From: Pseudomonas sp. G2-4
GTDB lineage: Bacteria; Pseudomonadota; Gammaproteobacteria; Pseudomonadales; Pseudomonadaceae
Reading direction: 5' to 3'
Assembly (NCBI RefSeq): GCF_030064125.1
Contig: NZ_CP125957.1
Span: forward strand, 5,512,501 to 5,576,500
Length of the DNA stretch: 64,000 bases
The notes beneath the pieces are model-generated. The model was not told where the DNA came from. It ran no database searches and worked only from the letters and a program-made list of their open reading frames with translations. The first letter of the stretch is position 1. The number at the start of each line of letters is the position of its first letter. Position numbers and translations under genes: made by a program. Positions 31,808 to 34,522 of this stretch are shown in pieces.

Positions 31808-32173
31808 CTAGCCCTTCGTCACCGGCACCTGCTCGTCCAGCACACGATTGGCCAGTAACTCACTCAACTCGATCAGCTGTTGCACTCCCAATGCAACATG
31901 CCGTCGCGAGCCGTCGAGTTCGAAGGCCAGGTCGCTGATTGTTGCATTGGCTGAGGTCAAGGTTTCGCTGAGGTTGGCGAGGAGGCATTCGGTGTCTATG
32001 CCTTCCACGACGGTGAATAGCTGGTTTGAGGATGGTTTCTTTTTGGCTTCAGGCGTTGGAGCCAGGTAATAGTCGAGGGCGCGCTGGGCGGCTTCGTCGA
32101 GCTTTTTGGGGTTAAGGCTGGCGTTGGGAGAAGCGTTATTGGTTTCTGAAGGTGATGGAGGTTTGTTACACAT
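31808..32173 (-). CDS. DUF6124 protein
   Basis: A 121-residue soluble protein. The pattern LDEAAQRALDYYL near residue 25, then a long helical part (ECLLANLSETLTSANATISDLAFELDG), matches a small family common in Pseudomonas now labelled DUF6124. Members often occur in many copies per genome (from memory). No function is known. GGAG lies before the ATG at 32173; a longer frame upstream is not supported. Confidence 0.68.
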   Translation of the reverse strand: MCNKPPSPSETNNASPNASLNPKKLDEAAQRALDYYLAPTPEAKKKPSSNQLFTVVEGIDTECLLANLSETLTSANATISDLAFELDGSRRHVALGVQQLIELSELLANRVLDEQVPVTKG

Positions 32174-32553
32174 AGCGGTACTCCAAAGGGGGAATGGATT
32201 ACCAAGTTTTCGGGCCGCGACGCCCGGCCGCTGAATTGGCAGCGACGGGAGAAGGTTAGCTAGAGCCCTTCCCACCCGGCAACCGCCAGAACTCGTCGGA
32301 AATGTCTGCTTAAATTAGAAGGTTGTCCGACCATTCCCACAAATTCTGATTTGGCTGTCAGGGCATCGGGGGGGTGTATATCCATTTCTGCGGTAACGGC
32401 TACTTAGGGTTCCGCCCTGACGGCGGGTCACTTTCGAAGATCCGGAAGCCGGCCCAGGCGAAAGTAACCAAAGCGCTTCTGCCCCACCACTCGGTGCCTC
32501 GCCTAGGCTCGGCATGCCCTCACTCCGGCATTGCTCCGTGGGCCCGCCGCGAA

Positions 32554-32600
32554 GGACCATCCATGGTCCAGCGCGGCTACCTCGGCATCCATGCCGAGGT
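32554..32600. repeat. Hairpin pair in the left arm
   Basis: Hairpin 1 (32554-32569): GGACC-ATCCAT-GGTCC. Hairpin 2 (32579-32600): ACCTCGGCAT-CC-ATGCCGAGGT. Both have partners in the right arm that keep pairing although the bases differ. Confidence 0.85.
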
Positions 32601-32716
32601 GCCCACTGCGCAATGCCTGCGTTCGGCCAGCGTGGTTAATGGGGCGCCCGAGATCAACGTCCGCCGCGAGGCGGCCTGATAGCCGACCTGGTTCTTGATG
32701 GGGATCGCGTTTCCCC

Positions 32717-32805
32717 TGTGGGAGCGAGCCTGCTCGCGAAGGCGGTGGTTCAGTTAGATAGAGATTGGATTTACTGTCGTCATCGCGAGCGAACTCGCTC
32801 CCACA
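32717..32805. repeat. REP pair (family A) inside the inverted-repeat element
   Basis: Facing family A units: TGTGGGAGCGAGCCTGCTCG and its partner ending CTCGCTCCCACA. Confidence 0.87.
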
Positions 32806-32849
32806 CTGGGTCGGTGACGATCTACAGATTTGCGGCCATTGCAAATCCC

Positions 32850-33006
32850 TGTGGGAGCGAGCTTGCTCGCGATAGCGGTGGATCAGCTTGCATCAGCGTT
32901 GGATGTGCCACCGTCTTCGCGGGCAAGCCACACAGTTAGATCGAAGTACAGTCGCCAGAGCCAGGTCAGCTGTCAGGCCGCCTTCGCGAGCGGGCTCGCT
33001 CCCACA
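32850..33006. repeat. Composite REP array (family A) inside the inverted-repeat element
   Basis: A forward unit at 32850-32879, a decayed partner around 32910-32938 (CTTCGCGGGCAAGCC), and an inverted unit at 32978-33006. It looks like a REP pair with an additional unit appended. Confidence 0.75.
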
Positions 33007-33119
33007 GGAGGAACGCGTTCACCCTAAGCCAGGTCGGCTATAAGGCCGCCTCGCAATGGACGTTGATCTCGGGCGCCCCATTAACCACGCTGGCCGAACG
33101 TAGGTATTGCGCAGAGGGC

Positions 33120-33166
33120 AACCCGGCATGGATGCCGGGTTAGCCGCGCTGGGCCATGGAGGGCCC
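33120..33166. repeat. Hairpin pair in the right arm
   Basis: Counterparts of the left-arm hairpins: AACCCGGCAT-GG-ATGCCGGGTT (33120-33141) and GGGCC-ATGGAG-GGCCC (33151-33166). Relative to the left arm three base pairs are changed on both sides so that pairing is kept. Confidence 0.85.
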
Positions 33167-33364
33167 TTCGCGGCGGCCCACGGAGCAATGCCTACGTTCG
33201 GGCATGCCGAGCCCTAGCGAGGCACCGAGTGGTGGGGCAAAAGCGCTTTGGTTACTTTCGCCTGGGCCGGCTTCCGGATTTTCGAAAGTGACCCGCCGTC
33301 AGGGCGGAACCCTAAGCCGCCGTTACCGCAGCAACGGATATGTACTCAATAAAAAGCCCCAAAC

Positions 33365-34465
33365 CTACAACCGCCCCGCCAACGCATAAGGCGCAGGATC
33401 AATCACCGCCTCCCGCCCCAACATCAGATCCGTAAACAACCGACACGACGCCGGCGCCAGCACCAACCCATTGCGATAATGCCCACAATTCAACCACAGC
33501 CCCGCAAACCCCGGCACTTCGCCAATATAGGGAATGCCCTCCGGAGACCCAGGCCGCAGCCCAGCCCAATGCCCAACCACCTCAGCCCCCGCCAACGCCG
33601 GAATCAACTGCTGCGCCGAAGCCTTCAGACTCTCCAGGGCAACATCAGTCGGCGTCTTGTCAAAACCCTCCCGCTCCAGCGTACTGCCCACCAGAATATG
33701 ACCATCGCGACGAGGAATCGCATAACGCCCCTTGGCCAACACCATGCTCGATAAAAAATTCGACGCACACTTATACAAAATCATCTGGCCCTTGACCGGC
33801 TCGACCGGCAGCCTCAGCCCCAGCGTCTTGAGCAACTCGCCACTCCAGGCGCCAGCCGCCAAAACCACCTGATCGCCACGCATAGGCCCCGCCGAGCTGT
33901 CCACCCCGACAACACGCTCACCCTCGCGAATGAACCCACTGACTTCGCAGTGCTCATGAACCGTGACGTTGGGCAGCGCCAACAACGCGGCCCTGAGAGA
34001 CTTCACCAACCGGGGATTGCGCACGTTGGCCACATCCGCCATGTAGATCGCCCGGGAAAAACCCGCCCCCAGAACCGGCACAGCATCATGAACAGCAGAG
34101 ATATCCACAGCCCGCAGCGGGCGCCCTTGCCGCTCGGCCCAGGCCAGCGCCTCATTCTGATCATCCAGGTCCAACCAATACAGGCCAGTGACATGCACTT
34201 GCGGATCGATCCCCGTGGCCGCAAACAAACGCTGGCCCAACTGTGGATAAAAATCCTGCGACCAATGGGCCAGCGCGGTGACCGCCGGGCTATAGCGCCA
34301 CGGGTACAACGGCGAAACGATACCGCCACCGGCCCAGGACGATTCCTGGCCGACACTGGACCGGTCCAACAGCACCACACGCTGCCCTTCGGACGCCAGA
34401 TTGAACGCCGTCAGCAGGCCGATGACCCCACCGCCGACAATCACCACTTGCTGTTGCCTGGTCAT
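33365..34465 (-). CDS. thiO: Glycine oxidase ThiO
   Basis: An FAD-dependent amine oxidase that makes dehydroglycine (iminoglycine) for the thiazole of thiamine. The 366 residues have the N-terminal dinucleotide motif VIVGGGVIGLLTAFNLA, the SSWAGGGIVSPLYPWRY region near the flavin, and the C-terminal GHYRNGLVLAPAS, which matches known ThiO proteins (Arg binding the substrate carboxylate). The ATG at 34465 is used; a TTG further upstream is possible. The gene follows pilE by 57 bp on the same strand. Confidence 0.88.
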   Translation of the reverse strand: MTRQQQVVIVGGGVIGLLTAFNLASEGQRVVLLDRSSVGQESSWAGGGIVSPLYPWRYSPAVTALAHWSQDFYPQLGQRLFAATGIDPQVHVTGLYWLDLDDQNEALAWAERQGRPLRAVDISAVHDAVPVLGAGFSRAIYMADVANVRNPRLVKSLRAALLALPNVTVHEHCEVSGFIREGERVVGVDSSAGPMRGDQVVLAAGAWSGELLKTLGLRLPVEPVKGQMILYKCASNFLSSMVLAKGRYAIPRRDGHILVGSTLEREGFDKTPTDVALESLKASAQQLIPALAGAEVVGHWAGLRPGSPEGIPYIGEVPGFAGLWLNCGHYRNGLVLAPASCRLFTDLMLGREAVIDPAPYALAGRL

Positions 34466-34522
34466 GTTCTGATTCGACTCATAAGACAGAGGGCGCAAGA
34501 CAGCGCCCCGAATAAAAGAAAC

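Follow-up and report, generated by a model that had tools for sequence, protein, structure and literature searches.

An interspersed inverted-repeat locus of Pseudomonas sp. G2-4 with two divergent TwoAYGGAY (RF01731) RNAs as candidate Rsm decoys

The window analyzed here, a stretch of 64,000 nucleotides from the genome of Pseudomonas sp. G2-4, contains an inverted repeat of about 1 kb whose small hairpins keep their pairing while their bases differ between the arms. Such a locus raises the question of what the preserved pairing serves. An initial annotation, made from the letters alone, proposed that the arms encode a structured RNA or form a cruciform recognized by a protein, and that the locus may be a composite mobile element. 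The reading developed below, to which we give an even chance, is that of an interspersed insertion-type element with two divergent, independently varying TwoAYGGAY RNAs around REP units, the RNAs being candidate Rsm decoys or 3' UTR sites.

Layout of the element and RNA family of its arms

The left arm (32375..32691) and the right arm (33029..33346) are inverted copies, as initially described, with 92% identity between 32378-32544 and 33175-33341 and 90% between 32541-32691 and 33029-33179. REP units, also predicted for the centre (32692..33028), are seen at four places within it (32714-32753, 32778-32805, 32847-32886, and 32979-33006). The right neighbor is thiO, encoding glycine oxidase (33365..34498, minus strand; TIGR02352, over cut-off), and the left neighbor encodes a DUF6124 protein (31808..32275, minus strand; PF19619). 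The 5' end of the DUF6124 gene holds a match to c4-a1b1 (RF03163, the target of C4 antisense RNA) at 32207-32259 on the minus strand (56.2 bits), and genome G039 has one at the equivalent place (L110 404-456, 46.8 bits).

The RNA of the arms belongs to a known family that the initial annotation had not foreseen. The covariance model of RF01731 (TwoAYGGAY), with a gathering cut-off of 43 bits, matches the right arm on the plus strand (33088-33207, 54.5 bits) and the left arm on the minus strand (32540-32604, 51.2 bits). Hence, both RNAs read outward from the centre, leftward in the left arm and rightward in the right arm, and the strand that matters is the outward one, which had likewise not been anticipated. 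The core RNA (alignment columns 47-212) occupies 32481..32645 (minus strand), closed by GCCCC/GGGGC, and 33075..33238 (plus strand). Within each core, two adjacent AYGGAY-type hairpins lie where they had been placed initially: hairpin 1 at 32579..32600 (minus) and 33120..33141 (plus), and hairpin 2 at 32546..32577 (minus) and 33143..33174 (plus). The claim that their loops are conserved holds for hairpin 1, with AUGGAU in both arms, but not for hairpin 2, where AUGGAU on the left corresponds to AUGGAG, one base off, on the right. Alignment of the arms also reveals a tail hairpin (columns 227-268) at 32427..32468 (minus) and 33251..33292 (plus). A tail hairpin of the form GGTTACTTT/AAAGTAACC beside the core occurs in a distant family as well (L096, L103, G190).

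Folding of the right RF01731 stretch (33088-33207) yields -84.8 kcal/mol (z = -8.75), and that of the left core stretch (32540-32645) yields -57.1 kcal/mol (z = -3.40, matched by 1 of 200 shuffles). Folding energy alone cannot pick the strand, since the opposite, inward strands fold as well by z-score (-8.90 on the right and -3.81 on the left).

Coding capacity was considered and rejected, in line with the initial view of the arms as non-coding. Core length is 164, 165, and 166 nt in 21, 24, and 6 of the host-genome arms, so one-base differences are common, and stops interrupt outward frames 0 and 1 in 51/51 arms and frame 2 in 50/51. A Pfam search with three arm frames returned no match. Nor did the cargo frames of two elements yield support for a DUF6124 assignment.

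Compensatory change and the outward strand

The substitutions noticed in the window arms are genuine paired changes. Three pairs change on both sides (columns 94/113, 96/111, and 126/137), one turns into a wobble (78/164), and one breaks (88/154). Change beyond chance is also evident in an alignment of the 51 arms of the host genome, taken on the outward strand and with a consensus of 69 pairs. Double-sided change affects 11 base pairs and 176 cells; sliding the partner column by 1-3 positions leaves 0-3 cells in 0-1 pairs, and shuffles average 56 cells, with 0/500 reaching 176. Paired cells amount to 99.6%, compared with 96.0% in shuffles and 38-43% after sliding. The number of further standard pair types lies below its control (22 vs 25.8 in shuffles, all 500 of which reach 22). 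With both arms over the family cut-off and a conserved fold that undergoes compensatory change, the expectation of a structured RNA in each arm is borne out.

Constraint extends to long-range pairs, with unequal clarity. The stems closing the core (47-51/208-212) are near-invariant, and one arm has a paired change at 68/174, 106 columns apart. Position 74/168, 94 columns apart, belongs to a helix formed by one module; of the 10 own-genome arms with that module, 9 are paired there (U-A 6, C-G 1, A-U 1, U.G 1, broken 1); in other genomes it is paired in 9 of 19 readable rows and fails in 10. Some pairs break in other genomes, among them 64/178 (31 of 109 rows; A.C 4). Orthologous arms were also compared between the host and G039. 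Nine pairs differ between the left arms, seven on both sides and two by a change to wobble, with none broken. Among the eight that differ between the right arms, three changed on both sides, three changed on one side with the pair kept, and one is broken in each genome. Gene conversion from other copies could contribute to these differences. Linkage is weaker between neighboring hairpins than within pairs, indicating that variant hairpins have been shuffled between arms.

The type of mismatch is biased toward the outward strand. Across 53 core pairs, G.U-type cells outnumber A.C-type cells 21 to 5 in the 51 own-genome arms and 96 to 22 in 109 rows from other genomes (distinct, with at most 12 gaps, drawn from 244 profile matches), where the cells are non-independent events and a further 4 and 122 cells, respectively, are of neither type. 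If the process acted on DNA without regard to strand, the two types should be equally frequent. The asymmetry therefore favors a single strand over a protein-bound cruciform, although single-stranded DNA of the same strand could produce it too.

Copies, arm pairing, and presence at the site

The element is dispersed through the 6.65-Mb host genome. RF01731 has 51 matches there, all over cut-off (150 of 313 candidates scored), and 40 of them form 20 divergent neighbor pairs. Querying with the left arm as DNA gives 48 matches (40 of 78 candidates scored), which end mostly at arm position 1 or 4 on the outside and at about 283 or 317 on the inside. In total, 31 stretches carry arms, 24 of them two-armed and 7 with one clear arm. 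The outer end, with up to three mismatches, recurs 31 times forward and 30 times reverse, compared with 6 + 6 for the reversed pattern. In one place (G000:C1 3118557-3118785) two outer ends lie about 230 bp apart, too close for a core RNA between them. In four arms the core is missing wholly or in part; an arm can therefore persist without it.

The two arms of one element show no special similarity. Core identity is 0.925 between partners and 0.932 to other arms (20 pairs), tail identity is 0.857 and 0.854 (17 pairs), and the best core match is the partner in 0/40 arms. Accordingly, the unit is a pair of RNAs and not one long palindrome, and the candidate explanation of a palindrome kept by arm-to-arm correction is ruled out. 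By junction type, 23 centres comprise 14 X + Z, 8 X + Y, and the X + X of the window, where a Y-like stretch lies about 40 bp closer to the middle on the right-hand side; a REP motif occurs in all 23. The centre of another element holds a C4 antisense RNA (RF01695, 75.8 bits; L039 2310-2398, plus strand) and a short frame that resembles one from the 527k element's centre (L040) and belongs to no Pfam family.

Divergent pairs are the rule but not a law, as shown by direct and convergent exceptions. RF01731 neighbors within 1.5 kb, counted in the host genome and the typed rows of matches from other genomes, are divergent in 39 cases, direct in 6 (all in G420), and convergent in none. A second count covers loop-masked profile matches in the stretches listed by a pattern scan of named records, at least 120 in number and, among those listed, all from Pseudomonas; it gives 47 divergent, 10 direct, and 2 convergent. 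At least five of these twelve non-divergent neighbors come from a single copy split into pieces that abut or overlap; L164 (convergent) and L182, L227, L249, and L257 (direct) are real exceptions, and direct neighbors also occur in G136, G090, G308, and G557. In G420 (L088 4571-6425) the RNA is repeated in direct tandem copies of a unit of about 577 bp, unlike the divergent pairs, between frames that we take to be der and xseA. Other families of the class show the divergent layout as well. In G190, a distant genome, 8/8 pairs join, by eye, one arm each of two sequence types.

RF01731 is widespread in the genus, with matches at E<=0.001 in 95/149 genomes (83 over cut-off). Genome G113 has 96 matches. 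The family occurs in 25/299 genomes of a phylum sample (20 over cut-off; 7 of the 25 from the same genus) and in 24/369 of a class sample (16 over cut-off); all three runs used stricter filters with few scored candidates per genome. At the window site itself, presence varies between genomes. The thiO flank was matched in 68/95 genomes, and the best 30 of the 68 loci were compared: the host, three genomes that carry the element, and 26 that have no arm. Among the arm-free sites, the pilR side and thiO lie close together in 21, and the pilR side is unmatched in 5. The element is present in G039 (both arms), G010 (right arm only), and G035 (end of the right arm at a contig edge), the closest by flank identity among those 30. 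The site is thus empty in 26 of 29 other genomes, and together with the copies elsewhere this polymorphism supports the dispersed, insertion-type character suggested initially.

Three arms contain 1.3-kb inserts encoding an IS481-like transposase (205.8 bits, under the NCBIfam cut-off of 224). These inserts (L045 2067-3242, L039 3084-4259, L028 227-1402) are over 99% identical and share place and orientation, just 3' of the core RNA, which points to a site-preferring insertion sequence. Because each sits inside one arm, we judge the insert a parasite of the arm and reject it as the driver of the element's spread.

Loops, rival explanations, and known systems

The form of the loops resembles docking sites of CsrA/RsmA. 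In the host genome, the hairpin 1 loop octamer is CATGGATG in 51/51 arms and that of hairpin 2 in 48/51, the three exceptions differing at N positions. A profile from the same alignment with both loops masked was run on 206 loci, all from other genomes, and gave 244 matches, 216 with hairpins and 199 distinct. Each of these loci was known from a match to RF01731, from a pattern containing hairpin 1, or from its relationship to the window site, and the hairpin 1 loops behind most non-host finds themselves contain GGA; hairpin 2 of pattern-found loci is therefore the fairer sample. Its composition over the 199 distinct cores is C198 A199 [T173 G16 A9 C1] G196 G194 A197 [T194 G3 C2] G198; departures from the commonest base number 31 at the two N positions of CANGGANG and 12 over the remaining six. 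Three odd rows, in which CC replaces GG, appear to be wrong-strand matches. Hairpin 1 varies similarly, with a loop one base shorter in 14. Beyond the genus, 23 of 24 RF01731 matches from 8 genomes of 6 other families were folded; all 23 display two ANGGAN or AGGAN loops outward (two with a third loop lacking GGA) and none a GGA loop inward.

Paired GGA loops matching CANGGANG are thus present, as in CsrA/RsmA-binding sRNAs, and loop variation falls mostly where CsrA/RsmA reportedly tolerates change in CANGGANG. Published work on P. putida cfcR places CATGGATG within a tested Rsm-bound site and quotes an RsmE consensus A/UCANGGANGU/A with core CANGGANG (PMC6849547); that site is predicted in a heptaloop, whereas the hairpins here have hexaloops. 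A CsrA gene occurs in 39/39 RF01731-positive genomes tested (the host and 38 outside the genus from the phylum and class samples) and in 31 of 36 listed genomes without matches; such co-occurrence is weak evidence, as CsrA is nearly universal in the sample. The host has three CsrA-family genes, one of which (G000:C1 2283602-2283757, minus strand) is some 0.75 kb away from the element at 2284511.

Binding of Rsm protein by a transcribed arm would extend the published proposal, made for RF01731 in Clostridia, that CsrA binds this RNA (PMC4333381). A transcript would cross the element, most simply by read-through from a flanking gene, and read-through in either direction would place exactly one arm in sense orientation. 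That arm would fold into two GGA-loop hairpins 28 alignment columns apart, and one RsmA/CsrA dimer could grip both. In that case the dispersed copies would serve as decoys or as binding sites in 3' UTRs, lowering free Rsm protein or marking the transcript that carries them. By consensus, the element shows neither a sigma-70 promoter nor a terminator pattern, which says little because shuffles expect only 0.4 and 1.2, respectively; no promoter was recognized by eye in the eight G190 pair centres among the alignment rows listed.

The hairpins could instead be DNA signals belonging to a non-autonomous element of REPIN or MITE type, with a transposase that processes its single strand and thereby keeps the pairing. 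We consider this possible though doubtful. Discrete outer ends in mostly inverted pairs and the insertion polymorphism at the window site both fit, and G.T is the milder mismatch in single-stranded DNA also, which would accommodate the wobble excess. Common compensatory changes at the DNA level have been reported for REPINs (PMC3116915). Such an origin would not lead one to expect loop variation that follows CsrA/RsmA tolerance, nor a fold family that is reported across gammaproteobacteria and Clostridiales (PMC2864571), and no transposase with the element's ends was seen among the own-genome ends.

A functionless repeat, in which template-switch correction of imperfect palindromes and gene conversion generate the paired changes, is improbable. 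Shuffled hairpins, partner arms that are not alike, and core deletions would suit it, yet the wobble asymmetry between strands, the paired change at 68/174, the near-invariant closing stems, and the two-GGA-loop design in other families argue against it; the loop or long-range-stem constraint that would count against it is partly seen here. Least probable, and to our minds very unlikely, is a bidirectional transcription barrier or mRNA 3'-end stabilizer behind genes. T runs of at least six within 90 nt outside an element end in 20/53 flanks (a raw count; of loci L258-L260, the flank of one L258 end was used) and a gene 3' end within 400 bp on at least one side at 20/24 loci (by crude ORF calls, on which no claim of tail-to-tail bias is based) are compatible with it, but it has no terminator pattern inside the element to draw on and leaves the GGA loops unexplained.

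The candidate-decoy reading may reach further. Tentatively, and with somewhat less than even confidence, we propose that gammaproteobacterial RF01731 RNAs are cargo of widespread dispersed elements, typically with two back-to-back CsrA/RsmA-binding RNAs, that act as self-spreading decoys and tune Csr/Rsm by copy number. Any transcript crossing such an element, in either direction, would then display one CsrA/RsmA-binding RNA. Were the many copies indeed mobile units that bind Rsm, the pool of free RsmA would be set in part by how many repeats a genome carries, insertions would make strains differ, and the CsrA proposal from the literature could be tested directly in genetically easy Pseudomonas strains. 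This would also join the literature on structured RNAs with that on intergenic repeats of the fluorescens group. What is new here is the connection of RF01731 with an interspersed repeat of divergent pairs: the accessible portions of the open-access literature on the family contain no mention of repeats or divergent pairs and no proven function.

Among known systems, the locus resembles REPINs and MITEs in being inverted-pair, gene-poor, dispersed, and polymorphic. It has the terminal inverted repeats and lack of an own transposase gene that characterize MITEs, with three copies bearing the later IS481-like insert. No transposase-bearing element with shared ends appeared among the own-genome copies whose sequence was inspected, and no target-site duplication is obvious by eye in the flanks, the element edge not being fixed to the base. 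A REPIN is a pair of short REP hairpins; here the arms are not REPs and are far longer, at about 300 bp, the REPs lie in the centre, and an arm resembles its partner no more than it resembles a random arm. The R200 intergenic repeat of P. fluorescens, described as 320 bp with 47 copies in SBW25 (Silby et al. 2009), is similar in size to the 300-317 bp arm and in copy number, by description only. It differs in its reported G+C (60.25%, compared with 65% for the left arm), and no inverted structure is listed for it in that description; that R200 is the arm repeat is a guess. Like CsrA/RsmA-sequestering sRNAs of the CsrB and RsmX-Y-Z type, the arms have paired GGA hairpin loops, with binding predicted here, but they offer only two sites per arm, in many copies and with no promoter recognized. 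The closest likeness is to TwoAYGGAY RNA itself (RF01731; Weinberg et al. 2010), with scores over the gathering cut-off and adjacent AYGGAY-type hairpins in a closing stem. Compared with that description, the loops of relatives broaden to ANGGAN/AGGAN, the core is closed by further near-invariant stems, and the RNA forms a high-copy interspersed repeat in divergent pairs.
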